In this document: positions 17,611-38,844 of the stretch, piece by piece
How positions within the stretch are numbered: position 1 is the stretch's first letter
How the letters are laid out: each line of letters starts with the position of its first letter
Source: Lentinus brumalis
Lineage: Eukaryota > Basidiomycota > Agaricomycetes > Polyporales > Polyporaceae
NCBI GenBank assembly: GCA_001792895.1
Contig: MARA01000007.1
Location: 558,001 to 622,000 of the forward strand
Length of the DNA stretch: 64,000 nucleotides
Direction: 5' to 3'
Translations under genes and position numbers: made by a program
The notes under the pieces: model-generated
The model's input: only the letters and a program-made list of their open reading frames with translations
Database searches by the model: none
What the model was told of the DNA's origin: nothing

Positions 17611-17617
17611 ACTTACC
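17611..17617. repeat. Target-site duplication, left copy (ACTTACC)
   Basis: A 7-bp direct repeat identical to 38838-38844. It lies directly outside the left inverted repeat of the 21-kb element. Perfect identity supports a genuine transposition. Confidence 0.8.
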
Positions 17618-17642
17618 TATGAGGGGATTTATGGGCCAAAAA
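17618..17642 (+). repeat. Left terminal inverted repeat of the 21-kb element
   Basis: It matches the reverse complement of 38813-38837 at 22 of 25 positions. The consensus starts TATGAGGSGMTTTATGGGMC and is followed by five A. Confidence 0.8.
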
Positions 17643-18316
17643 AGAATCTTTCGACGACTACTCACCCTGTTAACGGCATTTACCTTCTTATTTCCACACT
17701 TTCTCGTGTTCATTGCCTTTGGGCCCCTCTCATCCGGAGTTACTACCCTCAAGGTGTCTTAACTCCCAATTGTCCCCATGTGACGTTCCATGTCCAACTT
17801 CACTCGTCCTTGTCGTCTTCAGCTCCTTATCAGCGCCCTTCGCATAGCGGCAGAACATGGTAAAGCCGGACAATGTGGTGCAACGAAACTTGCGCTCCAA
17901 TTGTGGCTGAATACCATCCGAACCCTCCGTTGGAGCTGTTTTGGCTGTTCTCATCCTTCGTAACTGCCATTTGCATCCTTTTGATCCCGTTTGTTCCAGT
18001 GCGAGCGCAGTCACAGCAGATCGTTAAAGCGCTCTTGCTGACGTAACTCTTGGCGCCTATGCACCCCTGCCACCGATTTTATCCTCGTTTGTTTGCCTCT
18101 GTGACACCTTGTTCGAACATACTCACCTCCTCGCTTAACCTCTGGGCATGACGCCCGACCGGGAAGGTAACGGCTTGATCCGACACATAGTTGCTCCCGG
18201 GGTCCTTGGTATATAAGTGCTCCAGCATGGTCCGTAGTTCTCTTTTTTCTGCCTTCACTTGTCGACACCGCTCAACTCGCCCTGTGCACAGTCGCCTTCT
18301 CATACTCGTGCTCCCC

Positions 18317-21300
18317 ATGTCGTCTACCAACTACCCTCGCGGACCCTGCGCTCACTCTCAGTGTACTCAAGCCCTTGGGGGTTGCGCGGCTTTTGTGATA
18401 GTCGTCAACGACACCCTGCGCGAGGTGAGTCATACCGCGAAACTCTCCTTACCACATCACACTTCGCGTTGCTCATGTCGTGGGCCCATGCAGTATGCGC
18501 TCACGGCTGATGAACTTTGCTCAGCCTGCCTTCATCCATGGTTCAGCCATCGCGTCGGGGGAGTCGAACTGCAGGGCCGGTCTGCGCTGTTGCTCCGGGG
18601 TGGATGTGTGACTTTCCAGTGTGGTGGATTCGTCATGGTACGTTCTCTGTGCCATCTTGTCTGTTGTGTGTCACCCCTGAGCCAGTCGCGATTGCAGCCT
18701 GCCGAAGGAGGGCCGGCAAACTGGGACACGACATGTGCTTGCGGCGGCCCTCTGCGTGCGCATTCCATTCTTACGTCCAGCGCCAGTTCGGCATCCTCCA
18801 TGTCAGTGTGTAAAGTCTTTTCAACGCTCTTCATGTACTCATATTACACGTGCAGACCGAATCCGCAGGTTGCGCCAGTGCAATTTGTGACCACCCACCC
18901 GGCACCCTCCCCCATGCTCCCACCGGGCCCCAACGATTCTTTGGACGCGGCGGCGTTAGCCTCCGCCCCTCCCATTGAGGCCTATAGTCGTCTTCGAGAG
19001 GATGACGCCGGCTCCGCCTGGGATCGTTGCCGCGCCAGCGCAGTGCGACACCGCGTTGATACGTCATCTCAACGCAGCAACGTGTCACGTGTTCGATCGT
19101 CCACCTCGCGTGTCGCCACCCCCCGCCCTGCTGGCACTCCCACTGGAACGCTGGTGCATGGTGAGGCGCCAGGCCCCGTCGCGAGTCTCGAGGACCCTAC
19201 TGTCAAGGTATTTTCTGTCCTCATGATTCCCTTCCAGGTAGGTGATCAAGTATCATTGCGTCGGCCTATATACATCCTGCTCATCGTCTCTACGTCACAG
19301 CACCCTGCCACGGAAACACGGCGGGGCTCCTACCCGCGTACGGAGTTCGTTTGGACGCCAGAACAGTTCGACAAGATTGTTCATCAAGCACTCCTTTACA
19401 AGCTCGTTTTCACCGTCACCCTCGCGCGCGAAGGTCCGGTGTGGGTTAGCTTCCACGACCAGGTCATGGCTTTCTGCCGTCGCCAGCGCATCGACGTCCC
19501 TGGGTACGATCTCACCGTCGCTCCCCGTAGCCCCAGTTCGCTCCCGTTCGTGCTCCTCAAGAGTGCGAACAAGAAGAAGCCCCAAGGAGCCAAGGTGCAC
19601 TCGTTGTACGACGACCTCAATTGCACGAGCTTCACTGTCAACACTCTCCTCGCCACTAAGTTCCTCATCACCCCCCGTACCCCGGGGCGGAGGAAGAGTT
19701 TGCCCCACACCCCCTTCTGCGAATTGGTACGTCAACTTGTGGAGCATCGCCACTGTCGTCTCAAGCTCATGTTCATTAGCTCCTCGCCGCGGTGACCTCT
19801 CCGCTCACTTGATGCGGCCAGAGTTGTGGAGGGCGGACGAGCCTGGCATGCAGGACTATCTGCGCATCGCCGCGCCCAACGATCTCCATCCCTGCTTCCC
19901 GTCTCGTGTGATGTCGGTCGTCGGGCCTGACATCGTGCCCAAGTGCCGCATTGATTGCCCTACCGAGCGCCCTCGCTCCCCGACCCGTTCTCCGGTCGCC
20001 GGCCCTTCTGGCACTCAGCACGCCGGCTCGTCCTCCTCCCATTCCCCCACGTCGCCGTCATGGTCCGTCGAGCTCATGAACCCGCCTTCGCCGACCGTTG
20101 TGGCGTCTCCGGCTCACTCTGTGGTTGGATCCGCCGCCCCTTCGCTTTCGGCACTGCAGCTCTCCGGGCTCCTGGATAATGATGACTTCGCCTCGGCGAC
20201 CTCTACACCGTTGGGATCGCCTACGGAAGTTTGGCGAGACCTCCCGGCCCGAACGCCGAGTGCTGTGGCCGACGCTCCTCCATCCTCCACAGAGGTCACC
20301 CACGATTCATCCTCGATGGATACTGTTCTACCCACCGATCCACCCTCCGATCCGCAGGTGGACCCCGCGTCGGACATTGGAGGCGCCCCGGAGCCCGCAC
20401 GCCAGCCTGCTTCGCCGCTGGTGCCCGATCAGCCTGAGGCCAATCGCCCGTCGGGGCAGTCCCGGTGGTGAGCGGTCTGATCTCATCCCAGAGCGGCACG
20501 ATTACTCAGCTCACCGTGATGTCAGGTTCGGTATGGTAGGCGCAGTGCACGCAGTGCTCGGATGACCACTGGAGGTCGACCTCCGGCTCCAGTGCCGCGC
20601 CGAGGACGGAGTCGTCGGTCACGCGCTGCGGCAGAGGTGAGTCTTTCTCTTTGCCGCTCTCAACCAAGACGTGGCCACACATTCCTCTCTGCACACTCAG
20701 GTCGAGGATGACACGGACCGTGATTCGCCGAGTGCACCTCGGACTCTGGGGGATGCCGCGCTCATGGTGCGTTCTCGCTTGAGATCACTGACTCGGTCAC
20801 TCACACTCTGTCTTCACCAGAACACCAATACCACCCGACGGACCAGCGAGCGGTTGCGCGCTGTTGCCATCAGCGACGCAAACCCGGGCACAGGCACGGC
20901 GTCCCCGCCGGCGCGGGCTCCGGGTTACGATGTGACCGGCGTGGGCGCCGCCGTAGCACAGGTCGACTCTTCAGTCGGGGCGCCGCCGGAGGTACGTTGC
21001 CTCACGTCTCATCATGCGCAGGGCTTCCACGCTCATAGTGGTCGGATCAGGGGGATGAAGAAGAGCGCCCCACCAATCGTCGTCGCACACAAAGCCCTGT
21101 GTCGCTCGGGCTTCCGAACCTCGACGCACGCGTGAGTAGCCCTCCCCGATGTTGTTTCATTCTTTGTCTTAGTAATACATAATTGCAGAGTCCCCGGCCA
21201 CTTCGCTCGCTCCCTGACAACGCGGTGAAGGCATGGACAACCCGCGTCATATCCATGCTCGCGCCCGAAGGAGACTTCTCACACCCGATTCCCCACATCC

Positions 21301-22962
21301 GCGCTCCAAACTTGGAGATGGCGGCTGACATTCTGATTTTCCTTGTGGAGTGGTTGATCATCAAGCGGCCCTTGGGTCCGTCTCTGGTAGCGGAAGAGGA
21401 GTTCGGCGAGGCGTTCCGCGACCGCTTCCGTCATCAGGAGGCCGAGTGCACCTTGACAACACTGTCGCGGCTGATGCATCATGGGGCCGCACTAGACCTC
21501 CGAGTGTGAGTCTTACGTCTAGTCCCCGCCATTCTTCTTTGACACCTTCTTGAGCAGAGGCGACGCGATCGGCAGCAGTCCTCTGCGTTCTCTGCTTCGC
21601 CTGTGTGTGCAAAGGCTAGTTGGGGACGAGAGATACTGGAAGGCCGTTGGACGTTATCGATGTGTCCGCCCCGGCCCTAGCGGCGTGGTCGAACGTGAAA
21701 CGCACTTGACCTTGTGCGGGTACTTCGCGCTCTTGCAGATGGTATCCATTCACGTGGGGCCGCTGCCCATTTCTCCTATGGTCCTCCGCTATGCTATCGA
21801 AGGACGCGATGCGGCGTTGTCTTTTGATAGTATGTTTATACGCTTGATCGACCCGGATCTGTACGATCGCCTCGCGCCTTGGGACGAGTACGAATGGGGC
21901 ACTGCTCTGCCTTCCGACCCCAGCCACCCTCTCATCACGCTCATCTTCTCGGCTGGAGTCGATGTGAGTCCTCTTCGCCTATGTCATTCACGGCGACTGA
22001 CACGTGGCGTCTCCAGGTGAAGGTATTCAGCGACCCTCCTCGCCATGCAGAGCTGGAGTGGATGGAGAGGCACTTAGTGGCCCAGTCTGTGTTCGATGGC
22101 ACGGAACTCGCTTCGGATGCCAATGGCCTCCGCTCTTTCAGGCAGGGCATGCACATCGCTCTGGCCGGTGGTCGCACTCTCGATGAGGTGCGTATCCTCG
22201 CTTTCGTGTTCGGGTTCATGCTCATTTCGTCTCATCCCCCTTGCCCCAGTCATTCGCATACTCTTGTCGAGAGTACCTCGCCGTGATGTGCAGCGTTCGA
22301 TTGAATGATATCAGCCTCCTCATACGGCACATCGAATTCAAGTCGGCACTCGACCGTCGCGCCGCCGAACAGCAAAGCGCCCACTCCGAGGATATGCCCG
22401 ACTCCTCCTGGGATGCGATCTTCGAGGATGCTTTCAAGGAAAGAGTCAAGGCGTATCTGAAGGGACGTGGGCACCCCGATCACCCAGATGTTCGCGTTGT
22501 CGTGGGTGAAGACGTCTTCGTGCGTGACCGGGACGATCCTCTGCTCCTTGCCCGCCTTTTCTTGCAGATGATGTCCGGTTCAGATTTGGTGCCTCCTAAT
22601 GGTGATTGGAAACTGAAGGTGCGCTCTGCTTCCAGCTCCGTCACCTACCTTCTTCTGTGTCGCGGCATCAACTGATACGGGCTCATCAGATATATTTCCG
22701 ACATGTCGGGCGCCGTGGGCCTCTCCCGGAGGGAGCTAGCATTGGTCATATCCACCCGGTGAGCTACTGTCGTCTGAGCCGAGGCAGGTGCCGCTGCTGA
22801 ACAGTCGTACGGTAGATCAATGTCCATGCTTGCTTCTACGACTGCACCGTGACCGTCGACGAAGGCGTGCGCTATCTTCTGCGCGAGGACCACACGGGCC
22901 TTCTCTTCGATGTATGGTTCCATGGCGCTGTTCTGGACCCGCACGACTACAATCAGGTGTAG
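18317..22962 (+). CDS. HECT-like E3 ubiquitin ligase with Cys-rich N-terminus
   Basis: Intron-rich gene. Supported exons: 18317-18424, 18494-18637, 18698-18801, 18856-19207, 19301-19726, then a long Pro/Ser-rich exon to about 20467, several short exons to about 21510, and a tail of 21550(approx.)-21963, 22017-22187, 22250-22618, 22690-22758 and 22816-22962. The last five junctions are all in phase. The N-terminus has four Cys clusters (CAHSQC, LCSACLHPW, GGCVTFQCGG, TCACGG), perhaps zinc-binding. The C-terminal part resembles a HECT fold: an N-lobe-like LTLCGYFALLQMVSIHVGPL and FIRLIDPDLYDRLAPW, FLQMMSGSDLVPP before the C-lobe, then HACFYDC, where Cys after His-Ala recalls the HECT catalytic cysteine. 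Family role: ubiquitin transfer. The HECT assignment rests on these motifs; middle exons are uncertain. Confidence 0.6.
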
Positions 22963-23723
22963 ATGCAGCTTGGCGGCGGCCTCAGTATTGCATGGCGATT
23001 CGTGGTCCCATACGAGGGGCAGGGGCACGCGGTGGGGACACCGTCCACGCAACGGTGTGTGTGGGTGTGCGGTGTCTTTGAGGCTTCTTATGTAGCGCGT
23101 CGTATCTCCCTGTCTGCGATAATTCGGCACGTGGTGAATGGAATAAATGGCGGCCCTCTCGGGCCTCAGCCTTCTTGTACCCCTCTCCGCTCTCTCTAGA
23201 GCGATCTTGCCGTTGGGTCGTCCCGAGTAAGTCCACGTGTCTCAGAGCGCCCGTGAAGGGGCGCGGTTTGCACGTCGCCCAACGGTTGTCCCTCTTACTT
23301 TCCCCTTTGACCTCCCGCTTACAATGTCACCCTCTGTACACATGCCAACGAGCTTGAGTGCTTTCAACACGTCCAGACCTTGTCCCGCAACCGACATCCT
23401 GCCTCTCCCCTCCGAGTGTCAAGTTCTTCAACGGCACAAACACTTTCTCCCCGCCCCTGCCCCCTCACCGGGCGATGTTGGAGGCTATGTTCACGCTCCC
23501 TCCTCGGATGGTCGCGCATCAAAGCGGCCGCGACATTATCCCCCAACCTTCGCAGCTCTCCTCCCCTGGCGCACAAGTTCCTGCCCCAACTGTGTCCGGC
23601 GGGGAGGCCGGGAGGCAATCCGAAGGTCCTCCTCGCGCTGTCCCCAACTGTTCCAGAAGACATGCGGACCGTCAGGACGCATCGTCCCTCGGGCACGATG
23701 CGCACGCCAAGCACTACGTCCGT
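22963..23723. other. Spacer after the HECT-like gene
   Basis: It contains an AATAAA at about 23139, fitting a polyadenylation signal for the HECT-like gene. A Pro/Ser-rich open frame from 23358 runs into the tandem repeat, but coding status is unclear. Confidence 0.4.
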
Positions 23724-25042
23724 GGGAAGTCCATGGACACCTCGATAGTGAGTCTTGTTGGTCCCATCCTTCGGCCCAACTGAGCTGACGATCTGGATGT
23801 CAGGGCGGGTGTGCTTTGTCTGGGCCGTGTTGGCGGCCCTCCGGGGGTTCGGTATGTTGGGCTTAGCGTCGCTTTCACCGGGTGATCACTCACTTTCACC
23901 ACAGTGCCGTTCATGTGCCGCTCACACCGCTCATGTCTACTCGCATGACGCATGACGCATGAACGGGTGTTATGCGGACGCGCGAGGACGGGTACCGTGT
24001 GCCGTGTTGGTCATAGCTTCGGTCGAACTCTTCTCCGTGCACATTATTCCTCTATTTCGTCCTAGATGCGTCCTATGATATTCTTTGTCGTCACTCCTCG
24101 GCCACGTTCTGTCCTGGGAAGTCCATGGACACCTCGATAGTGAGTCTTGTTGGTCCCATCCTTCGGCCCAACTGAGCTGACGATCTGGATGTCAGGGCGG
24201 GTGTGCTTTGTCTGGGCCATGTTGGCGGCCCTCCGGGGGTTCGGTATGTTGGGCTTAGCGTCGCTTTCACCGGGTGATCACTCACTTTCACCACAGTGCC
24301 GTTCATGTGCCGCTCACACCGCTCATGTCTACTCGCATGACGCATGACGCATGAACGGGTGTTATGCGGACGCGCGAGGACGGGTACCGTGTGCCGTGTT
24401 GGTCATAGCTTCGGTCGAACTCTTCTCCGTGCACATTATTCCTCTATTTCGTCCTAGATGCGTCCTATGATATTCTTTGTCGTCACTCCTCGGCCACGTT
24501 CTGTCCTGGGAAGTCCATGGACACCTCGATAGTGAGTCTTGTTGGTCCCATCCTTCGGCCCAACTGAGCTGACGATCTGGATGTCAGGGCGGGTGTGCTT
24601 TGTCTGGGCCATGTTGGCGGCCCTCCGGGGGTTCGGTATGTTGGGCTTAGCGTCGCTTTCACCGGGTGATCACTCACTTTCACCACAGTGCCGTTCATGT
24701 GCCGCTCACACCGCTCATGTCTACTCGCATGACGCATGACGCATGAACGGGTGTTATGCGGACGCGCGAGGACGGGTACCGTGTGCCGTGTTGGTCATAG
24801 CTTCGGTCGAACTCTTCTCCGTGCACATTATTCCTCTATTTCGTCCTAGATGCGTCCTATGATATTCTTTGTCGTCACTCCTCGGCCACGTTCTGTCCTG
24901 GGAAGTCCATGGACACCTCAATAGTGAGTCTTGTTGGTCCCATCCTTCGGCCCAACTGAGCTGACGATCTGGATGTCAGGGCGGGTGTGCTTTGTCTGGG
25001 CCGTGTTTCTTTGTCGTCACTCCTCGGCCACGTTCTGTCCTG
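23724..25042. repeat. 392-bp tandem repeat, three copies plus an internally deleted fourth
   Basis: Copies start at 23724, 24116, 24508 and 24900 with almost no differences (for example GCCGTGTTGG against GCCATGTTGG). The fourth copy keeps the first 108 or so bases and then jumps to the last 36 or so (TTCTTTGTCGTCACTCCTCG onward). Very low divergence points to recent amplification or gene conversion. Small open frames on both strands recur in each copy and have no recognisable motif. Confidence 0.9.
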
Positions 25043-25304
25043 CCCCCTATGAATGTACTATCCTTCGCCCAGCACGTCTGTCCTGACATCTCGCGTGTCA
25101 TGGCCCTTTCTACTGAGTACCGTTCAATCCCGTGCCACATGGAAGTGGTGTTGCGCACCCGCTCATCCCGTGTGTGCCGCAACGACGCCTAGCTGGTGCG
25201 TCGATCTTCATGTGGTATCACGGTGATGCTAAGGTGCGACTATGTCGGCCTCTTCCTCGTCCGCGGCGCGATAGCGCCCGGCTCTAGCTCACTCTCTTTC
25301 GACC

Positions 25305-26324
25305 ATGTCATACTCGAACATTCCACCCTCCCGCATGCACCTGTATGCCGCTCGACGCCATACTCCCATCGCCACCGTGCCCGGATCCCGTCGAGCTCTT
25401 TCACCGGGGGCCTTCACTTGGACGGATGAAGAGGTGGAGGAGTTGCGAGCTTGGCGAGCTCATCGCCGGTCCCATGAAGCCGCGGTCGTCGTCTCTCGAC
25501 CTCCCGATCCAGGGAGTCAGGAAGAGCCGGAATATCTCAACGAAGTCCTCTCGACGGCGCAAGAGAGCGGGGTCAATTATTGGATCCCGGTTGAGGACGC
25601 CCACCTGGCGCGTACCGATCTCAATGCATGGGAGAACCAATTGGTACTAACTGGGGCACCCCTACTGGGTCTCCATCGAGCGCGTGTCCTGAGCTAGACC
25701 GCCTCAGTGGCATGGGTATCGTGCGCAAGGATGGTGTGGGCCGGACCTCCCCTCTTGCCCTCATGCCCGCCTTCTGTGTGCGCTTCTCGGGTTACTCAAT
25801 CGCCCATTCCGAGCACCAGGAGCAGTGGGAGTATGCAGATGAGCTCAACGTACGTCCATTTGTGTGCTCTCATGGGAATTCTTCAACGCAACTGGCCTTT
25901 CAGGTCGACTGGCCGTCGGGTCCTCTCGACGCGTCGTCTTGGCCATCCCTGCCGGAGCCGTGGCACCTGAGCTCATATCGCCTCCCGGTGCGCACGCGCG
26001 TTGCCTACGCGGAACTGTGCCGTATCTTCACGTTCTTTGGGAGCGCTCACCCCGAGGAGGACGCAGAGTGGCTCCAGGCCCGATGGGATGGCATCATGGA
26101 GGCGGTACGGCAGCACACATCGGCCCCCGACTACACGCCCGAAAACGCGTTGCAAAATGTGCTAGATTTCTGCCGCTCGCATCTTCCGGTGTGTCATTCA
26201 TCGATCTACGTTATCTCGTAGCACGGGCGACCTAACTGCGCACTCCAACTTCTAGGCAGACGCTTGGGAGGGAGCAGAGATCCGGCGCGGGGGTAACGGA
26301 GGTCCGGATTCGTTCTGGAGATGA
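25305..26324 (+). CDS. Unrecognised cargo protein, 270 residues
   Basis: I do not recognise the family. A clean model joins 25305-25643, 25730-25849, 25904-26188 and 26256-26324; all junctions are GT-AG and in phase 0. The protein starts MSYSNIPPSRMHLYAARRHT, then FTWTDEEVEELRAWRAHRR, a mid part with FCVRFSGYSIAHSEHQEQWE, and a helical acidic C-terminal half (RVAYAELCRIFTFFG, EEDAEWLQARWDGIMEAV, NALQNVLDFCRSHLP). No signal peptide or membrane segment. Consistent splicing and the absence of frameshifts suggest a real gene of the element. Function unknown. Confidence 0.6.
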
Positions 26325-26984
26325 GTGTGATACATCGTCGTGTGGCAGCATGCAATGTATGTCTCCAGCGCGCCATGAAATGTCATGTTCTCAATTGCAT
26401 GTGCCCAATTCCCCACAGCGTCTTGAAGCCTCGGCCTCGGCCGATGCGCTACTCCACCTCACCATGCCATTTTGCGTGCCTTGCTCTGCCTTTTCGTCGC
26501 GCGCTTGGTGGCTAATGTTTTGCCACTGACAGGTTCAGCCCGGCCCTGAACTCTGCCATCAGCATGGACACGGTAGGCCAGGAGTTTCACTGGTGAGACA
26601 TCTCCATAGCCCTCCTCCAACGGCACCCGCTCGTCTCTTCAGAAACCCGTGGTATTCTATGTTATAGCGTCCACAGGGGAGGCGCGCTTCGTTGGAGGCG
26701 TGTGGTCTTCCGTGTGCGGCTCGAAACTTCGATGAGATCCCATCGGTACGCAACATCCGGACATCATGCCCGCCCGAGAACTATTCCCGATATGGCTAGG
26801 TTGCCGTCCCAGGCCACGAGGCGCCCACCTCATTTTTTCAAGGGCGAATCCCGGCCTGACGAGCCCGATTTGTCGCGGTCCTCCGGGACCTCCCTGTTGC
26901 CATCCCGTGCCCCGATTCACCCTTCCTTCGCCCCTACACATACGTCCCACCACCTGTCCTGGACACCTCTTTCCGCGGCGCGCG
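26325..26984. other. Spacer inside the element
   Basis: Nothing recognisable; possibly 5' exons of the next gene, but no splice pattern stands out. Confidence 0.35.
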
Positions 26985-29283
26985 ATGAGTGAGCCGGCAC
27001 ATACCACCCCAATGTCAGACCTACCCCGTCCCGCCACCCGGCAAGAGCGCGCTGAGCGTCGAGCTCTTGCCGCGATGCAAAGACCACCCGGGGGCAGCAC
27101 ACGTCGCACGCGAAAGCGTAATCGAGGCACTGTGGCCGCTCCTGCGCCAGGCATGGGCGACCTCGTCACGGAGGTCGCAGAGCCAACCAGTAACATACCA
27201 GTGCATGTTCCCGCGGCCGGTGAGTACAACATCCCCCTTGACCTCGCTTCCACCTTGAGGCTTACTTGGGTATCAGGAGACGGGCACGGTGTAGCACCCA
27301 CAGTCGCGGACCCGATCGCGGCTCCCAGGACGCCAGAAGATGTGCAATTGGCCGACAGCGACGCAGCCTCGCCGCCGCGTACCATAACTGAACACCCTCG
27401 TGAGGGTTGCTCGGAGCCCGGGCGACTATCGGAGATGCATTTCGCGGGGATACGGTGTCAATCAGCAACGACGTAGCCATGGTCGTAGGTAAGCTTTGTG
27501 GTTCCGTCATCATGTCTGGTCAGTCATACTGTGCTGAGGGGGCCTCGACGCACTTAGGGAGCGCTACCGGCACTAGTTTGGTCTCCATTCGCGAGCCCAC
27601 TCAGGAAATGCGCCAGGGCGAGGTCGTTATGACGTTCACTGTGAGCTTCGCGCCATCACATGTATCCCGCCGTACGTTGCTCATCTTCATTCAGGCTGCA
27701 CAAGGGCCGGTGGACACCGTGCTCCTACAGGAACATGTCGCCCCGACCACGGAGGTATCTAGCGCACCCCGGTCACCGGCCGACCCCGCCGTAATCGCAC
27801 GGGCAAGATCACACGAGGTCTGTCTGAAATCCCCCACAGTTCGGCATCGTGGCTCACTCTGTCATAGGCGGCTGAGATTGTCGCCGCTCAAGATGCATCT
27901 CCAGAACATCTCATGGTGGCAGATGTTCCGTCAGCACACCCCGGAGAGAGACGGAGCGACTCTTATGGTGGCATCAACGGAGTACGTCCACTATTGGTTA
28001 TCGCCGCGGACACGTTCCAACGTTCTGTATGTTCGCCTCTGCAACAGGCAGACCTTGCCGCCTCGCCGAGGGCTGTTGCGCCATTCGGACGCGAAGGGAC
28101 AAGTGGTGAGTGTCGTAATATATCAGACCTGCGGGACGTGTATTCTGACATTGACCCATCCGACCCAGTGTACCCCATCCCGGGCATACGGCCCAGCGGG
28201 CATGCTCGCCCACCGTGCGGGAACCTCATGCTGGCACATCGCCATGCGCTGACGATGACCGTGTGTAGCCCCTCTCGTGATGATCCACGGCGACATGCTC
28301 ACATCTGGGTCTCCCATTGGTAGCGTGAAACCCGGGGACGTGACGGTGATCATAGGGGGCGCCCGCCGACCGCGGGCACCCGGATAGTCGTGTGTGCTCT
28401 CATCCCCCTCGCTCCGGAACTCCGTGCCTCCGCGCGACTCCCGAGGCTGGTCGTCTGGCCTCTCCCGTCGCAGGTGCCGCCTCGCCTCCTACCGGCACTC
28501 CGGGCTTTATATCGACTGCCTCGTCCACGGACGGTGAAATAAACGGTGTGTTCTACCTGTCATTGCATGAACCCGGCTTGACATATATCAGATGAGGATA
28601 CCCTCGCGTTCGACGAAGAGGAGGGCACCATCACAGGTGTGCCCGCTCGCACGGGTCGCAGGCGACGACGCTCCGCGGTGCCGACCGTCGTCGACAGTGA
28701 CGTTGCGGCGTATCTGGAGCATCGATTCCCCGGGAGGTTGAGGATGAGTCGTGAAATACGGGCTCGGTCGAAGTTGCAGACGGGGGCAGGCTACAAGAAC
28801 AACATCTTGATACGGCTTATCGTGAGCACTTTCATCGACCTGGCCCTCGGGACCCAGAATTCCGATGTCAAGTCGCGGGAGTGCGACTTTGGCGGTCAGT
28901 GGGTCACCGTCTCAACCGATGACGTTGTCCTCGTGTTCGGCATGGCGCTCACTACCTTCTCCACCACGCGCTCGCACGTTGAGATGTGCTACAGGGTGCG
29001 TCAGTGGATGATTGACAACCGGAGACATTGGGACGAGGGAGACGAGGATGGGGACGACCAACGGCTGTTCGAGATGCTTGAAGCGTACTGTACCGCGGGG
29101 GTTCTTCCTCCTATCACGGCTCCACAAGCGGTCACGCTCACAAGGGCACAGCGGGATGCTTTGTTGTGCGGTGGGCGCACGTTGTACACTTTGGCCGTGG
29201 GCTTCATGAACCGCATGAAAACGAAGGAGGGCGTCAGGACCAACCTGCTACCAATGCCAGTGGTGTATGAGCCGGAGTCGTAA
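26985..29283 (+). CDS. Unrecognised cargo gene with basic N-terminus (model uncertain)
   Basis: I do not recognise it. A start at 26985 gives MSEPAHTTPMSDLPRP followed by a strongly basic stretch (RQERAERRALAAMQR, RRTRKRNRG), which could bind nucleic acid or act as a nuclear signal. Several exons with weak boundaries follow. The last part, from about 28592 to 29283, is continuous and well formed: an acidic start (DEDTLAFDEEEG), GRRRRRSAVPTV, then SREIRARSKLQTGAGYKNN, FIDLALGTQNSDVK, DFGGQWVTVSTDDVVLVFGM and a helical end. Whether the front and back belong to one gene is not certain. Confidence 0.4.
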
Positions 29284-29562
29284 CGAATGTTGTATTGGGG
29301 ATGCGTGCTTGTCATTAGATCGGTGTGGAATACATCGTACTTACCTTCATAACCATCCCGTACTGAGCACGTCACTTTGTACCTTACTTCATTTACGCTA
29401 CACTTACTGCCCAACATGTGTCGATACAATGAGACCAAGAATGCAGTCAAATCTCAGTTACCTACGCGAAGCGACGTGTGGACAGAATGGGGTCGTAGGA
29501 CATGACAACAGCTACTCGGGGCTCTGCGATATGTGTCATGGGAATAGGAGGCGATGATTCGT

Positions 29563-32160
29563 CTAGTACGATGTCCTCCAGCTCACGGGGGTCGGGGTAT
29601 AAGTTGCATAGAGACGTGGGTCCTCCCACATGAGCTCCGGAATACGTTGTATTCCGAGGGCCGTCTTGACGGTGGCGGATATCCCATCCACCTCATCGCC
29701 TGCCTCATCTTGCTCGTCCATTGCGCCCCGGGCCTGCGTACCGCGGGATACCACTCTCCAGACGTCCCGCACCTCTTGCATGGCTCGCACATCCTCTGCC
29801 TCTGTGAATTCGCGAGCCTGATCTCTAAGGTGCTACAGCGAGTGAGATTAGCTACGACTGGTGTCCGTTCTGCGCGAGGACCTACATTGATGTCCACGAG
29901 TTGCCCCACCTGAACGAGCAACTCTCGGAATTGCTGTGTCTGATCCCGGGGCTCCGGGGTGCGAGCGTACTGTGTGATCTCCACGACTTGTCTTCGGAAC
30001 GAATCAATCGCCGCCACGGAGACGGCAGGGTGATCGCCAACCATGGCCCGCAGGAGCAGGAGCAGATCAACGATGTTTTGCGCGTACGGTCGGTCCTCGG
30101 TCCAGCCCGCAAGGCTGGCGCACAAAATAACGTTGTATACTCTCTCCTCGGGACCCCTAAATCCGTTGATGCATAGGGGGATCTGAGGCGAATTAGCAAC
30201 GAATGCATGGCGGCGAATTCGCCGGACTCACGGTGAGTTTATTCAATTTGCTCCCGCTGTCCTCCAGCCTGAGGTAATAGAGCAAGCTTGTGCTGCGCAC
30301 CGGCGTATGTGGCGTGGGCGGGACGAACATGTGGCGTGCAAAGAAGTATGCCCGACAAGTCGGCGCCGTGTGGAGGGTATGCATGTTGAGGGGAGAGACC
30401 ACGGAGAGCCAGCGCCCATGGCCAGCTTCGCGATGAAGGTGGGAGCCCGCGCCCAACCCATCGCGGTAAGCCCGAAATACGTTTCTTCGCAGCCCGCAAC
30501 GAAGCTCTGATCTGTTCGTACCACGAGTCAATGTGCGGGGATGCCACCCAACACTCTTCAGCCAGAGTGAACGACGACTTGGTTCCGGGCCCTCAGAGTA
30601 GACCGGAGATGTGGTGGCGCATGGGTACAAGGTGGCTAGGGTCTTCGACGTTTACAAGGATCCAGGTGACCCTAAAAACACTCCGAGGAGATTCAAAACG
30701 GCCTGCGTCGGCCTGGGGATGAGCTCTGCAAATGAACCGCCCACGTCCGGGGCGATTGTCAAGTGCGGCAAGCTCAACAACGCTTCGACCGGTTGCTCTC
30801 GGTGTGGATATGTTACGCCCGGCGGAGAGCATCACCTTACCCATGCCCTCAGTGTCGTCAAATCCCAGCCGCCCTCCAGCTCATCGATTTGATATCTGGT
30901 CGTACACGCCTGCATCCTGCGTCCTCCGGCATTGATGATGTCATGTGCGTTCTGCTCAACGCGGACAACCACAAAGTGACATGGTTGTGGTTCTCTCCAG
31001 CCCGGGACCGTCCACACGAAGTCGTCGGTATGTCCCGGTGAGATTATATTGCCCGAGTTTGAGCCCGAGCACCTAGAATTGGTGGGTTATCTCCCATTCT
31101 TCTAGTACGCCGGTCACGGATATACACAGCTCTACGCTCGCAGCAGCTTCCACTCGTCTCGGCTGACATGGCAGAACGTCCGCTCACGATGATACACACC
31201 GACCGTAAATGCCCGTCGAGGATCGGAGTCTCCCCACAATGCTGATTCCAGGCCGTCGTCTGGTTCGGATGTAGTGCCGGGCCTGCCCGCTGGTGGTAGG
31301 TGAGGGAGGGTGCCCCAATTGGAACCCATGTCATCCGGGCACTGTACCCCGACCGAGCGATAACTCCGGTGCCGTGTCACCGCCTGTACTGCTCGCCGGA
31401 TCTCCATCCAAGTCAGCAGAGGCCCATCCCACGCTGCCTGTGGACTCGTTCTTGTGAGTTCACCCTCAGAAGAGGCAGCATAATAAGCTCCGCGCACCTC
31501 GGGCACCTGGGGTCGCATCCATGTACGTAGACCGACGAGCCACTTGGACATGTCGGGAAATGGCCGGGCATCGAACGTGGTCGAATACTGTATCACCTCC
31601 TGGAACTTGCACCAAGCAGAATTGACTTCGAGCCATCTCTGCGGCCAGAACCATAGCAAAAGCCGAAGGATGTCATGCAGGGCGTGCCACACCGACGGCG
31701 GGAGGTGAAGATGCTGGGCGTCCACGCTGTGTATGTATGCCAGAGTTGTCTGCCATTGAGCCGGTCGATCCTCCGGACGTGACGGACCGACTCCTAAAGG
31801 TACCTGGGGGCGAGGTCAAACATACAGACCGCCGCGCCGATGCAAGAACTCACATTGATGATGCGCTGGCCCCGAGAGACTCGGAGGTAATAGTACAGCT
31901 CATCCGAAACAAAAGTGGCCGTCGTCGGATCCTTCGGACGCATGCTGGCATTGGGGAAATAGCGCGCGTATGTGTAGACGAGGAGAGGGGGACCTTCCCG
32001 GACCTCGGTGAGGACCGCAGAAGTAGAATCGTCGGAGAGACCATGCGTGAGACTAGGGACGCGCACAGATCGCGGTGAGGTGGGGGCACTGAGCGACAGC
32101 CCCTCCTCATAGCTCTTCCTCGGACGGTGCAAACACGTCGCTCATAACGGGGAGATCCAT
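29563..32160 (-). CDS. Unrecognised cargo gene, minus strand (model uncertain)
   Basis: Multi-exon minus-strand coding signal of unknown family. Best parts, in reading order: an acidic leader (MDLPVMSDVFAPSEEEL) near 32160, EVREGPPLLVYTYARYF to SDELYYYLRVSRGQRIIN (about 32080-31855), a Trp-rich block WHALHDILRLLLWFWPQRW (about 31700-31130), CINGFRGPEERVYNVILCA followed by NIVDLLLLLRAMVGDH (30170-29900), and a last exon ending PELMWEDPRLYATYTPTP at 29563. Alternating open frames bounded by GT-AG sites support a spliced gene. Order and orientation opposite to the neighbours suggest a separate cargo gene. Function unknown. Confidence 0.4.
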
Positions 32161-33369
32161 GAAGACGGCCTCAGACAATGGCCGAGGAGTGGTCGGCCAC
32201 CTGGCTCACGTAGTGCAACCTTGTGCGACGGGAAGGCGTACAAGGCGCCCGGAGTGGTTCCGGCGTCAAGAGATCGCGCACACGTGGCAAATGCTATTAC
32301 ATGGAGGACGACTCTACTCTACACACCGTCTACGTGACCTCATTCATACCACAGTCCATTCACCGGTTCTACTGGACACTCGGTAGACTGCAGACCTGGC
32401 GATATCTCATTCGTCCTGAGATAGACCGGCCGGCGACGTATGGCTTACGCTATCCGCTAACGCGCGCGCGAGGGACGGCACGGACTCCACCTCACCGCCA
32501 AAAATTTCGAGCAGCCTTGCGACCAGCTTCCTCCCTCCCGCGAAACACGGTGCGGCTGAAGCAGGAACCGAATGCGATCGCGGACCTCAATGAGTGGTGG
32601 AGGCCAGCGGTGGCCCGCGGATATGTGAAGACAAGAGGGGGCGCGTGCGAGCAAGCGAGACGACCGGACTCACCGAGCGAAGGGTGCGCAAGACCCCCGG
32701 GCGAGATCGCTATAGAACGGCGGGGCTACACGCCTACGTAAGTAAGTCATACACCGGGCGGGCACATACGCGGCGACTTACGCATGGGTGGCGACGTGTA
32801 GACGAAAATCTTCGCGAGAGCCCGTGAGGTGGTGCTCTTCGTGGTGGGGCTGGGCCGACTTCTGGAAAGTGAGACGTGTCAGAGTAGAGAAGATGGAGTG
32901 CACTGCCCGACCCACCTAAGGACGTCCGGACACAGGAAAGGTGTAGCACAGAGAACGACAATGGAGCAGCCGAGAACGGCGCGAACCCGCTGCGAGGCAG
33001 GGTAGAGTCGTAACGCGTATGGAACCAATGGAGCCCTGGCGGATCGCATGGCGGGCATTCCCCAAGACACCGGAGCGGGTCTCAACGAGGGGGATAGAGT
33101 CGGGAAGGACGCGTGATTGTGCCGAGGGCGCCCCCTCCTCCTTATATACGCGGCCGCCCATGAGCGCGGCGGAGTACGACAGCCGACCGGGCCCGACCAT
33201 TGGCGAGGCGGCGGAGACACAAAGCACAAACTCAGCCGCCACCCTCACCGTGCTCGTGCGCATCTCATTGTTCGGCCACGCTGGCTCGCCGTCGCAACGT
33301 ATCCCCAACGGTCAGCCCATCGTGCTACGCTCAGGAATGGTGAGCTTATGACAACAGACGAGCCCCAGA
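32161..33369. other. Spacer inside the element
   Basis: Open frames on both strands but no splicing or motif evidence. It probably contains the divergent promoters of the minus-strand cargo gene and the dioxygenase gene. Confidence 0.35.
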
Positions 33370-35293
33370 ATGGTGTTCAAAGCTGATGCGGTGGCGTGTC
33401 AGATTTATCCCCTGCCCGCGCGCCCCTCGCAGGAGGTGAGCATGGGCGCATTCGCCGCGAAAGAGCTTCGGGAGCAGCGAAAGTCCCGGAAACACGTCTC
33501 ACAGGTGGCGAGAGCGCGTGCTATGAAGAATCCGGAGGGTCCTCGACCACACACCGGTGAGTGCACCTGCACCCACCTGTTTCCCACCGACGTCAGAGCT
33601 CCGCAGGGCCTCATTCTCGCGCACACACCCGAGTCGAGAGGGAACGAGGTCGTGCGGCGGCGCTTGGTCATCTCTCCTCCCGCGTCAGCTCCTCCGCGCC
33701 CCGCCATCGGGGCCGTGAGCCCGTCTCGCCTACGGACGAGCGAACCCCCCTGCTCCGATTGGGTGCTTCGTACGACGTGCGCCCCGTGGGACTCGAGCGT
33801 CGCCCGGCGACACATGGGGTATGGAAGGACACGCTTGACGAGGCACAAAATGAAGCGATGCGACTGGCGAACGACTACTTGGCCCTCGCGCGCGACCGCG
33901 CGCGGGCCCTCCTCCCCGAGTATCGCGAAAGAGCACGAGTGCATTACGACTGGGACACGGCGATGGAAACATTCAGTCAGTTATCCGGAAACGACGAAGA
34001 CAGGTCAGTCACATCACGGGCTTTCTGCGTGCGGCCGGCGCATGGTTTGCTGATGTGGGCGAAAGAAGCCGGGAACCTTTGGGCTCGTCAACGTACGTGA
34101 CTCTACCGGGATATTTCTCCTCACTTTCTGAGACAGTACGACCGGTAGACCTTCGACGGCGTGGAATCGGCTCACTCGAGAGCAGCAGATAGTCGAGCTG
34201 AGCTTCGGAGCCACCCGGCAGGCTTGGAAAAGTGTTCAGCGCGCGAAGCTGCCCGAGAACACGGGTGAGTGGCTCCCCGACCCCGCTCATATGAAGCTGA
34301 CGTTACCACATAGTCCACTTGGAGAATTTCCGGTTGGTGGATGCCGTCTCCAAGAACTATCATAACGGGCCCAAGATCGTCAAGACCGTGCCCGTGGAGG
34401 AGACACGGCACACAGTTTTGCGGGGAGACCGACCGCGCGCCATCCGGAGTGCGGACGAATTTGATGTGGTCGTGCACCTCCCCGGCGCACTGCGAGGCAA
34501 GACATTGGTGAGTTGTACGGCGTTGTGTCTAAGTCGAAAGCGGCAATGGATGATGAGGGTACAGGACGACGTAACAGCAGCCGTGGAGGAATGGGGCCGA
34601 GTCGCAAAGCCCTCGCCAAAAGGAGCCAACGACATGGCCGATTGCTACAAACGAGAATACGATCTTGTTGGTCGCACGCGGCTGGCGACTCTCTGGCATC
34701 CGGTCGGACACAAGGTGAGATCACTCCGCGGGTGTCTCTTATGCATCGAACCTCACCCGAGACACTACGAAGCATGACCCCCCGTGGTGTGCGCCGATGT
34801 ACGCAAAACCGGCGCAAGTTACGAAGGTGCCTTCAAGCTGTTTGCGGAGCTCGACTTGGTGAACGCGTTCTGCACCACGGCCCTGCTCGCGATCGACCCT
34901 CTGCAATACGGTCTCTTGCGCCGAGTGTACGATTGGCGCCGCGAAACCTACAAGTCTCAGGTCGCGATCGCCGCCCTGGACAAGTACAACTTGTGGGAGG
35001 GACGGGAGATCATGTTCAATCGGTGGTCCCACCCGCACTGGGATCACAATGACCCTCATTATTCCTGGGCGTGCATCGTGTACTTCGGGAGCTTCACCGA
35101 AGCCCGGATGAAATTCCGACAGCTGAATGCGGAGGTGTGCCTGCGCCGCGGCGACGTCGTGTTTCTGCGCGGGCGAGACGTCTTGCACGAGGTCGCCGAT
35201 TGGGGCGACGGTCAGCGGCACTTTATGGTCTATTTTACTCATGAATCGCTTTGGAATGGTGCGGGGATAGAAAGCCGCGCTACACCGATGTAG
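33370..35293 (+). pseudogene. TET/JBP-like 2-oxoglutarate dioxygenase, one-base frameshift
   Basis: Well-supported exons: one ending at 34013, then 34137-34264, 34314-34507, 34565-34714 and 34773-35293; the region before about 33750 is unresolved. The last exon holds a double-stranded beta-helix core with the iron and 2-oxoglutarate ligands: HPHWDHND (His at 35036, Asp at 35042), a distal His in DVLHEV (about 35186) and Arg in GQRHFMVYFTHESLW (about 35216). The fold order and VYFTH ending resemble fungal TET/JBP enzymes that oxidise 5-methylcytosine. The exon opens HDPPWCAPMYAK and then must change frame at an A run (34805-34808, four A where five are needed) to continue TGASYEGAFKLFAELDLVN. 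The ligands are intact, so it could be a recent lesion or an assembly error. Confidence 0.6.
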
Positions 35294-36244
35294 ACTCGTG
35301 CAGTAGGGGGGGGGGGGCATCTGGGGTGCCCAATGTAATTTGTTTCAACTGGTGAATAGTAGCGGGTGGGAGCGCATGCATGAACGTTCGGACGAGACCC
35401 GCACAGGACGTGCTGGGTGGGAGTGACGACCAGGTGCCCCGGCAATACACTAACAATACGTCCAGAGACATCGTGATTGATATGCGACCAAATGCACTTG
35501 AAATGACCATGGTAAGAGCTCTCACACTGGGTGAATATATTTGTTCATCTCTACGGCAGGTTCTCCGAACGAATTGCCTGCGCCGGGGCTCGCTGGGCAC
35601 CGAACACTCCTCGCGAAACAAGATATGCTTCTGTCGCTGTGACAAGACATCGACCACGACGCCCGGCGGCCGTCTTGACCGGCCTCCAACCAGGGTAGGA
35701 GAGCAGCGATTCCGCTGAACAGGATCGGAGGGGGTAGAAGTGAGAAGCCCATAGTGTATACATGGACAGCAATATCTTGATGTACCGCATGTCTCCGACC
35801 ATGAAGAACGGGGATAGGTGCGCCGTGTCGTACTTAGCCGCATCAATGACACTCCAAGTCTGATCCTTTGACGAGCATCATTGAGGTGGAGGTCGTATAG
35901 CTCGCCTCGGGGGCTGTCGTCCATCCGCTTGGATGTCGCCCGACGCAGCCGTCGCGTCGCCGGCCCCGGAGTGCACTACTGTTCTACTGTGGCCCAGTGT
36001 GCCAAAAGTGTATGACCGTGCAACCATGCGGATCGGCGTCGAACACGAGTGGGTGGTAAAGAACAATTGAGCCAGAGAAACATGCGATGCGAGCGCGAGT
36101 CCCGGTGCATAGATACACTGCACGGGGCTGCGTCCCACGACGACTCGTAACTTAGCTTGTGAAGACACGTTCAGACGGGCCGGGCAACGAGTGAAGAGAA
36201 GGCATATGACATTGTAAAAGCGGAGTACATCGGAACACATACAA
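35294..36244. other. Spacer between dioxygenase and integrase genes
   Basis: The 3' ends of both genes converge here. It contains a long G run at about 35307-35318. No gene seen. Confidence 0.4.
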
Positions 36245-38050
36245 TCAGAAGTAGCGACGACAGTACAGCAGCGCGGCAGACCAGAGACGGCGACGCATCA
36301 ACATGTCGCGCGAACGCAAATCGAAATGATGAGCGAGGTGCGCGTTGAGGAGAGCGACTTGTGGGGGAGTGAGAGGGCAGCGAGGCGGGTCGCACGTTAC
36401 TTCGTGTAGCTCCTCGGGGCGCGAGGACGCGGCGAATGGATGAGACCGCTCCTCACTGGAACCAGGATTGTGCTCACGGTGGTGACGCATAAGGGTGGCA
36501 TCCTCCAGCGCCGCCCAATCCACACCATAGCTTGCCGGGTCGTCGACCGGTTCGTCGACGGGCTCTGGGCGCAAATCTAACCCGCGAGGGCCATGCCGCA
36601 CCATTCCGAACATGAACATCTCGCGAGGACTCGCCGCGCGCTCCCCACGGATGTGGAGGCGATGAGCATTCCAGCTCTCTGCCCAGTCAAGGGCGTCCTG
36701 ATTCAGCGCATGCAAGAACAAGTGATGAAGGAGCCACAGGTGCTCCGGACGGTCGGCATCGAGCTCGCAGTGTTGCTCGAGCTCGAGGAAGAAGGTCTTC
36801 CATTTGCCACCAAAGCCACTCGTGACATCGAACCACAGTCGTTCGATCCGGGTGTTGTGGACACTCCTGTAGAACAGTATGAGCGTGTGGCTAGGATAGG
36901 CAAGAACGACAGACTCACCGACCCCAGATATAGGACCCCCGACCCAGACCCCGCGTCGCTTCCATCCACTCGGCGACCCTGATGTTCTCGGTGCCGTGAT
37001 CACCGCGTACTCTACTGGGAACTCCATGGTGGCGCACGGTCTCCAAGAACAGAATGAGAACGGTTTCCGCGCGGTTGTTCGTGTGAACACGGATGCCCGT
37101 GACAAACCGGGAATGGCCATCGACGAAACAATGGGTGACAAACTTCCAGCGGATGAGGCCTACATGGCATAGAAGCAGTGAGTGTGCGAAAACTTGGAGA
37201 TGGGAGCGTGAGGAACGACGCACCGTGTTGTCCATCGTGATGAACCAAGGAGTTGGGTCCGGGGACTTGGTACTTCTTGCGCACGATGCGACGACGACCA
37301 AACACCGGGGGCGCACCATGGACTCGCAGGAATGACTCACGGATGCGGGCGTCGGGGACGCGGTGGCCGAGGGATGCCAGATGACCGCGAATCATGCGTC
37401 GTCCAAAGTGAGGGAAGACAGTGAGGGTGTGTGCCACGAGTGCATCCAAGGCGTGATCGGAGAGGGTGGAAACCGGAGCAGTGACGGATCGATGGTGACG
37501 AGTGGTAGAACCGTCGGGGTGATGAACATGAACGATGACGGGAGGACCAGGGTCGCGAAGACCGTGCTTGACGGCCTGCCTGCGAACATGTCGGGGAGAA
37601 CACTTCAGAAGGCGTGCCACGGCCGTAGGGCCGCGCATGGACAGAGCGTGCGCAAGAAAGGTGGGGTCGATATTTTTCATCGGATGACCGCGGCCGCCGG
37701 TTTTTACAATCTGCACGATGGGGAGAGACGGGGCGTCCGGGGGATCGATGGACTGGTGACAGGCCTGATCGAGGTCGGACACCATGCGCGCGACGCTATG
37801 TGCCAGAGTGTAAAACTCTCCCGGCGGGAAGACGGCGCGATGCTGGGAGGGAAGTTGAATGAAAGCCGGCATATAGGAGACATAATCGCTGACATACCTC
37901 TTCGGCGGATGCCCGTAATGCCAGAGCCTGTGCGCGAACTGCACGGAGTCGTGGGGCATCGCCGACCTGGGTGCGTAGAGCGGTGTTCACGCGCTGCCGC
38001 AACACAACGTAGGCGGCACGGATATTGTTCAAGGGGGTTGACGGCTCCAT
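36245..38050 (-). pseudogene. DDE integrase core-domain protein, frameshifted
   Basis: Exons 38050-37224, 37159-36919 and 36866-36245, introns of 64 and 52 nt. The N-terminal region is helical (MEPSTPLNNIRAAYVVLRQR, ALRASAEEVCQRLCLLYAGF). At about 37855-37863 the frame must shift by one base to continue LPSQHRAVFPPGEFYTLAHS. Next comes a helix-turn-helix-like part (LSMRGPTAVARLLKCSPRHV, FGRRMIRGHLASLGHRVP). The rve-type catalytic domain follows: VHHDGQHGLIRWKFVTHCFV with a candidate first Asp, VPSRVRGDHGTENI with the second, and HNTRIERLWFDVTSGFGGKW with a late acidic residue. The C-terminal tail includes GERAASPREMFMFGM. Family role: DNA strand transfer, here the likely transposase of the element. 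Confidence 0.7.
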
Positions 38051-38812
38051 CGAGCGCAGAAGGTGTGATGACGAGGACGAGATATGAAAGCAGCAGGTCG
38101 GAGAAGTAGGAAGAAGGGAAGACACCGGAGAGGCGTGAAATGAGTTTGCGAGACAGAGGCGGACGGGATTGTGGGTCGGGGGGATGGGAGAGACGGAGAT
38201 GTGAGCGGAGGACGTGGTGCAGAAGGGCGGTGCCAGGGGGCACGCAGAGGTCTGCGCACGGACCATCTCCGGCATATACACATGCCGGTTGCGGTGAACT
38301 GACGTATATGAAAGAGATGGGTAAGAGAGGATAATCATGAAGGAAGGAACATACCTCGACGGATGCACGGGCGGCTACGAGCCCCGCATGGAGAGGTGAA
38401 GTCGTGACAAACGCTAATGAAGGTAGATGATCCACGACAACATAGGATTGCGGCTGCGTGGTACGCGTCTCATGTTAGCCAAGGTCCCACAGATTAAACG
38501 GGCCCGGAGCTGCGTGGGGCAACATGAGACAGGTTCATCTTGGAAAAAACTGGTTAGAGAGAAGGCTTGGAATGGGGTGTCACTGATGGATGGGGCGCGT
38601 ACAGACGAGGCGAAACTGAGCTGTTGCACGCATGAGACCGACAATGTGGGAGAAACGAGGATGGCACGGCTCAGGGTCAGACGGTCGGAGATAGAGGCCG
38701 TTGTGTTTGGGTGGGCGCTGATAGGCCGGGGTGAACATGGATAAATGCGGACAAACACGGGTCAACGTCGACAAGCCGAGGTAAGCCCTCTACGCGGTGT
38801 AGATTTTGGGTA
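38051..38812. other. Right end region of the element
   Basis: No supported gene. It contains the upstream region of the integrase gene. Confidence 0.4.
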
Positions 38813-38837
38813 TTTTTGTCCCATAAAGCGCCTCATA
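38813..38837 (-). repeat. Right terminal inverted repeat of the 21-kb element
   Basis: Reverse complement of the left end with 3 mismatches in 25. Confidence 0.8.
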
Positions 38838-38844
38838 ACTTACC
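38838..38844. repeat. Target-site duplication, right copy (ACTTACC)
   Basis: Identical to 17611-17617 and directly adjacent to the right inverted repeat. Confidence 0.8.

Follow-up and report, generated by a model that had tools for sequence, protein, structure and literature searches.

The stretch of DNA analysed here, referred to as the window, comprises 64,000 nucleotides of the polypore Lentinus brumalis (contig MARA01000007.1, positions 558,001 to 622,000). It contains a 21.2-kb transposon that encodes an integrase (transposase), a TET/JBP-like dioxygenase, a HECT-like protein and the products of three further genes, here called B, C and D (Table 1).

The element and its related copies

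At the ends of the element, 22 of 25 positions match as terminal inverted repeats (TIRs), and the sequence ACTTACC abuts both of them as a perfect 7-bp direct duplication, exactly as a preliminary description of this DNA had stated. All own-genome searches were made in the genome from which the window comes (53.4 Mb in 136 contigs, labelled C1, C13, C55 and so on). With up to three mismatches allowed, the TIR pattern had nine matches there, whereas the reversed pattern used as a control had none, and the exact matches form two facing pairs, 21-22 kb apart. The pairing of the TIRs is therefore not a matter of chance. A second complete copy was found at C55:584218-606057 (21,840 bp), in the opposite orientation, with the same TIRs and flanked on both sides by the 6-bp sequence GGGCAC. 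All aligned stretches over 300 bp between this copy and the window are colinear, at 67-75% DNA identity, and an exon-by-exon comparison of the two identified six conserved genes, in the order HECT-like (+), B (+), C (+), D (-), TET/JBP (+) and integrase (-). The earlier claim of a bounded transposon is thus confirmed by this copy and by the further elements that have both ends.

The integrase had 25 matches in the genome, which were reduced to 17 loci by dropping seven weak ones (E above 1e-9) and merging two pieces on C82. Both ends with direct duplications are present on one contig at five of these loci (the window, C55, C13, C1 and C66), and at two more the ends could be paired across contigs by inference (C87/C101, with GACAAC, and C53/C22, with GCGCAG). 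A single end was found at seven loci (C44, C93, C45, C49, C95, C109 and C110) and no end at three (C126 and the two C82 loci). At C44 the left end was not found within the 2 kb inspected; at C93 the right end was not found, the identity with C101 ending before it is reached. A doubtful TIR-like match near the C82 integrase points in the wrong direction and was left out as an end. The end motifs are TATGAGG..CCTCATA in the window and C55, while the ends on C1, C13 and C66 read TATGACG. The duplication is 6 bp in C55, C13, C1, C66 and, by inference, the two contig pairs, so the 7 bp of the window, which the preliminary description had expected of other copies as well, is correct for this copy but is the exception among its relatives.

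Several copies are nearly identical and lie at different sites. For example, C87 and C93 share 99.9% identity over 4,971 bp; this identity breaks off at the terminus, to within one base, and the flanks beyond it differ. Around the integrase, the aligned stretches of the loci on C45, C49, C95, C109 and C110 show 99.3-100% identity, and at the integrase-side end, which was the one examined, TATGAGTGG is outermost in each of the five, each time behind a different flank. In C110 the terminal 285 bp are present twice, in tandem. The C66 element, which over 1.5 kb shares 98.7% identity with the C44 locus, could be non-autonomous. A different kind of likeness was seen between C22:14104-24103 and C83:61503-66502, which share 99.86% identity over 5 kb of element sequence and have the same 12-bp outer flank; judged from the sequences, this is either a duplicated region or a second haplotype in the assembly.

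The element had also been described as interrupting a cluster of BTB genes. This holds in the sense that open reading frames (ORFs) of this kind lie on both sides, with three of the six flanking ORFs tested matching Pfam BTB, and that the right boundary of the insertion lies ~150 bp upstream of the start codon (38997) of one of these BTB ORFs. An apparent empty site was found at C60:2885207, where 66 bp match the joined window flanks at 86% and contain a single ACTTACC (TTATCT-ACTTACC-TGAGTT). This site is paralogous and belongs to the window's own genome, whereas the check suggested earlier was for empty sites in sister strains. No BTB match was found in the 3 kb inspected near it, so a BTB promoter is not indicated at the C60 site.

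The integrase gene encodes 544 amino acids with no internal stop and an intact DDE triad, D254-D311-E346 (DD34E), which bears out its earlier assignment. The protein matches Pfam rva_4 at 5.4e-60 and rve at 4.8e-6, the latter below the curated cut-off; it had no sequence match in the PDB, and no C-x-x-C of an HHCC finger was found upstream of D254, as read from the integrase sequence. Transposons of the IS3EU/GingerRoot type are characterized by mostly TA..TA ends, 6-bp duplications and a DDE transposase lacking the HHCC finger, with a first catalytic D located 100-300 residues from the N-terminus (PMC10045372). The element has TA..TA termini with TIRs, a mostly 6-bp duplication, a DDE transposase lacking the finger and D254 in the expected position. 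It is therefore most likely a DNA transposon of the IS3EU/GingerRoot type, an assignment based on published criteria rather than on a tree with reference proteins. GingerRoot shares the ends, duplications and fingerless transposase but was described from a clubmoss, with relatives supposed in animals, and the accessible text describes no TET or HECT cargo for it (PMC10045372). IS3EU repeats are mentioned in Ganoderma, with no cargo mentioned in the accessible part of that paper (PMC8955403).

Table 1. Features of the element in the window, by window position, and other elements with both ends on one contig
Feature	Position	Strand	Remarks
Left target-site duplication ACTTACC	17611..17617	.	repeated at 38838-38844
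Left TIR TATGAGGGGATTTATGGGCCAAAAA	17618..17642	+	same end type in C55; with 3 mismatches on C22, C83
HECT-like gene	18317..22962	+	multi-exon, start to stop codon; HECT-like region from ~21189; exons conserved with C55
Tandem repeat	23718..25007	.	unit 392 bp, 3.3 copies, 99% match; not in C55 copy
Gene B	25305..26200, limits approximate	+	conserved with C55, 35-50% at the amino acid level, by stretch
Gene C	28165..29283, limits approximate	+	conserved with C55
Gene D	29480..32129	-	multi-exon; in the window, C55 and in part the C53 copy
TET/JBP dioxygenase gene	33606..35293	+	catalytic exon 34778-35293; start codon approximate
Integrase/transposase gene	36245..38050	-	4 exons: 38050-37898, 37842-37224, 37159-36919, 36866-36245; GT..AG introns
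Right TIR, inward reading TATGAGGCGCTTTATGGGACAAAAA	38813..38837	-	reverse complement pairs with left TIR
Right target-site duplication ACTTACC	38838..38844	.	copy of 17611-17617
C13 element	C13:1029498-1055198		both ends; duplication CCCTGG
C1 element	C1:163994-184887		both ends; duplication CAAGGC
C66 element	C66:341248-343385, 2,138 bp		both TIRs; duplication AGGCTC; deletion derivative

The TET/JBP-like and HECT-like cargo genes

The catalytic exon of the dioxygenase gene encodes the motif H87-x-D89 (H87-W88-D89), H137 and R147 (numbering within the exon). In an alignment of 11 sequences H87, D89 and H137 do not vary, and R147 hardly does. As a single sequence the protein matches Pfam Tet_JBP at 6.4e-6, below the curated cut-off, whereas a profile made from the 11 sequences finds NgTet1 of Naegleria at 4.8e-8 and CcTET of Coprinopsis at ~2e-5. 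The TET/JBP homology is significant by this sequence comparison, in support of what the preliminary description had suggested, and the catalytic core, with HxD and the distal His, is common to both reference enzymes and the element protein. Gly331 and Asp337 of CcTET align with Asp92 and Ala98 of the element protein, which therefore lacks the mark of the AG type; having HxD rather than HxE, it is also distinct from the PE type. Between the window and C55 the gene is 91% identical in amino acid sequence.

For the HECT-like protein, a full-length homologue was found in Polyporus arcularius (P0011), 95% identical over the part searched; in this search only the 7,994 candidates with most words in common were scored. 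The HECT reading comes from structure comparison. With the predicted model of a homologue, P0014, the best 27 Foldseek matches were all HECT ligases, mostly aligned over the first lobe, and a HECT N-lobe fold is provisionally assigned from this model. The likeness to HECT ligases (NEDD4 family, AREL1, HUWE1) is in this predicted first-lobe fold (Foldseek, VIA), whereas the identity in the VIA rows is 7-13%. Near the C-terminus, the sequence Cys-Phe-Tyr-Asp-Cys is present in all five homologues (of six) that reach that region, preceded by His-x in four and by Arg-x in one (P0016). At the N-terminus (window 18317-18840), the alignment consensus has repeated Cys/His-rich motifs, GPCxHxQC, CSACxHPWFSH and CACGGxLRAH, which may bind zinc; P0014 lacks most of this Cys-rich part.

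Both cargo genes accompany the integrase at other loci. The input for this comparison was 19 TET loci (21 matches, with second pieces on C101 and C110 merged), all 16 HECT-like matches and all 16 gene C matches. Within 36 kb of the integrase, TET was found at 15 of the 17 loci, a HECT-like exon at 10 and both at nine, compared with a chance expectation of 2-2.5% per locus for a cargo gene. The order HECT (+), TET (+), integrase (-) is kept in eight of the nine loci with both, so the three genes do co-occur elsewhere in the same arrangement. One of the nine, at C82 467-501 kb, was counted despite spacings of 27 and 34 kb; with this spacing and a mismatching TET clade, it suggests two overlapping elements. 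Across 14 loci, near-identical copies included, the integrase and TET identities correlate (r 0.74), with none of 10,000 permutations as high and C82 as the exception; C95, with its short piece of TET, was left out of this comparison, and C101 is represented by only 83 amino acids of TET. The Polyporus arcularius proteins P0002 (TET) and P0013 (HECT-like) are each listed with a 20,241-bp contig, presumably the same one. At a further set of loci, C35:1222540, C72:356805 and C76:309266, there are equal-scoring HECT-like exon matches, each with a gene C match 7.4-7.5 kb off and with no integrase of the 17 loci inside the 36-kb limit; these may be another group of elements, with a more distant transposase.

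The ratio of nonsynonymous to synonymous substitution rates (dN/dS) between the window and C55 is 0.03 in the TET catalytic exon, and 0.16, 0.06 and 0.07 in three HECT-like exons. In two further HECT-like exons dS is saturated, and the corresponding ratio of proportions of differing sites (pN/pS) is 0.16 and 0.23; a second TET stretch has 0.21. The integrase has 0.07, 0.03 and 0.03 in three stretches, a fourth, 87% identical, having been left out. Genes B (dN/dS 0.24), C (pN/pS 0.32, dS saturated) and D (0.13 and 0.29) are looser. The TET and HECT-like cargo genes are under purifying selection.

Possible roles of the cargo

TET+ IS3EU transposons have been reported in rust fungi and Tuber indicum (Kojima 2025, PMC12730594). 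The combination of an rve-like integrase and TET in one bounded element, which the preliminary description had regarded as unfamiliar, is therefore not itself new. According to the accessible text of that paper, TET lies between the transposase and alpha-kinase genes, in opposite orientations, in all TET+ IS3EU families, and only TET+ Kyakuja is reported from Polyporales (PMC12730594). The element and its related copies resemble the rust and Tuber elements in the TA..TA ends, the mostly 6-bp duplications and the position of TET between the transposase and an oppositely oriented second enzyme gene. However, the element has the HECT-like gene where they carry the alpha-kinase gene, and its TATGA ends and 25-bp TIR (22/25 match) differ from the rust ends TAYGG..CCRTA, with TIRs over 30 bp (PMC12730594). 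None of the eight Alpha_kinase matches in the genome is near an integrase locus. The rust type was ruled out by the TET gene having no alpha-kinase beside it and by these ends and TIR length. With the TET+ Kyakuja (KDZ) elements of Agaricomycetes, the element shares mushroom hosts, TET/JBP cargo and, in the window copy, 7-bp duplications, but Kyakuja has CA..TG ends and no TIRs (PMC12730594), and was ruled out by the TA..TA ends with TIRs and the rva_4 transposase.

What appear to be new are the HECT-like partner and the polypore setting of a TET+ IS3EU-like element. None of the words HECT, ubiquitin and integrase is in the main text of PMC12730594, and no paper combining a HECT gene with a transposon of this kind was found among the papers searched and listed. 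To this extent the combination still stands as unfamiliar. Fungal TET/JBP-carrying transposons are known and thought to resist DNA methylation, and their other cargo enzymes are without a worked-out role. Judging by the alpha-kinase in the matching position of the rust elements, the recruitment of an enzyme that modifies proteins may have been a repeated event among TET+ IS3EU elements.

We think it rather probable that the 21.2-kb IS3EU/GingerRoot-type transposon carries the TET/JBP-like and HECT-like genes as its own kit against host silencing, and a shared anti-silencing role of the two is likely. The transposase would cut the element out and paste it in, joining the TATGA ends to the target with a 6-7 bp stagger, as the knowledge of the family and the traces seen here suggest. 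The dioxygenase would oxidise methylated bases in or near the element, such that the element stays expressed. The HECT-like protein would ubiquitinate, and thereby remove, a protein of the host, most probably one that takes part in silencing or DNA methylation. More tentatively, and with less than even confidence, the copies might represent a polypore lineage of giant IS3EU-type transposons that counter the host defence in two ways. A divergent TET/JBP enzyme would remove or alter the silencing marks on the DNA, and a ubiquitin ligase of HECT fold, the first one known to be carried by a transposon, would destroy the host proteins by which these marks are laid. Recent copies in one genome, a fixed gene order and cargo under selection would make possible a direct test of whether host silencing proteins are removed along with the marks.

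A number of results weigh against an anti-silencing kit of this sort, most of them concerning the HECT-like protein. The P0014 model has a mean predicted local distance difference test score (pLDDT) of only 38.7, and its structural match is mostly to the first lobe. Pfam HECT was matched by none of the five homologues given, at E up to 10; phmmer and profile searches of the PDB returned only unrelated matches, at E 0.72 or worse; and none of the 15 PF00632 matches in the window's own genome is at a transposon locus. A profile-profile comparison of the putative C-lobe with the host HECTs gave a score of 14.4 and a probability of 0.7%, with at least 6 of 100 column shuffles scoring higher, and the active cysteine is unproven because this comparison is no better than shuffles. 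The HECT-like E3 of the preliminary description has its support in the mostly first-lobe matches of a low-confidence model, and all the sequence searches for HECT were negative. Among the integrase, TET/JBP and HECT-like readings HECT is the weakest supported, and the enzyme activities are predicted only. As regards the dioxygenase, the element has Ala98 where CcTET has Asp337, a residue reported there as essential for 5-methylcytosine but not for N6-methyladenine (PMC12730594). At the level of the loci, a HECT-like exon was not found within 36 kb of the integrase at 7 of the 17 loci, nor TET at two; the copy on C53/C22 has kept the 5' exons of the HECT-like gene, while its 3' exons were not found in the stretch examined; and at C82 the TET gene falls into another clade than the integrase. 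Own-genome match counts are lower bounds, intron-bearing genes matching exon by exon, so a missing HECT-like match may mean divergence. Lastly, the observed/expected ratio of CpG is 1.05 in the element versus 1.07 and 0.98 in the flanks. CpG is not depleted and there is therefore no sequence trace of methylation pressure, which neither demonstrates nor rules out such pressure.

The missing Pfam HECT match and the unsupported C-lobe, together with the Cys-rich N-terminus of the consensus (though not of P0014, which lacks most of it), would also suit a HECT-derived protein that is no longer a ligase and that, by way of this N-terminus, assists the transposase in binding DNA or in a structural capacity. 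We consider this unlikely, given the Cys-Phe-Tyr-Asp-Cys sequence in every homologue that reaches the C-terminal region and the strong selection on two C-terminal exons (dN/dS 0.06-0.07). Somewhat less likely again is that, in a mobile IS3EU-like transposon, the HECT-like protein is directed at proteins of the element itself, for example by limiting the transposase or dismantling the transposase-DNA complex, with TET alone handling methylation. Some transposition complexes are dismantled by protein-remodelling systems, and the opposite orientation of the HECT-like and integrase genes, with their order, is kept in eight of the nine loci with both cargo genes; however, no test result favours one ubiquitination target over another.

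Polintons have an rve-type integrase, 6-bp duplications and a length of ~20 kb, all of which the element shares, but a degenerate Polinton or virus-like element with the integrase retained is highly improbable, since Pfam searches over the 46 ORFs of the element, exon by exon, found only rva_4 and Tet_JBP, with no polymerase, capsid or packaging ATPase, and the TIR is only 25 bp. Least probable of all is a chance composite, in which an rve element happens to lie next to host genes unrelated to it. Only the variable content (the missing TET and HECT-like matches) speaks for this reading, which is refuted by the gene order common to copies within common ends: in four elements these genes lie between two ends that are flanked by direct duplications, the window and C55 align gene by gene, and the cargo is under purifying selection.

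Other genes and repeats of the element

Gene B has at least seven own-genome matches and no significant Pfam match. Gene C has at least 16, and 11 of the 17 integrase loci have a gene C match no more than 36 kb away; gene C is probably a further core part of the element. It has no Pfam match, and its model (mean pLDDT 41.7) gave no fold match (best Foldseek E 0.56). In the window and C55, gene C is located between the HECT-like and TET genes, while at C1, C13, C44, C93, C101 and C126 it is located between TET and the integrase, inverted relative to TET. This change of position marks a rearrangement within the element.

A second set of rva_4 integrases, several copies on C52, C58, C74, C97, C56, C98 and C65, is 35-40% identical to that of the window over short stretches. 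Like the window copy with its tandem repeat, the C22/C83 stretch has repeats of its own, offset by ~250 bp.

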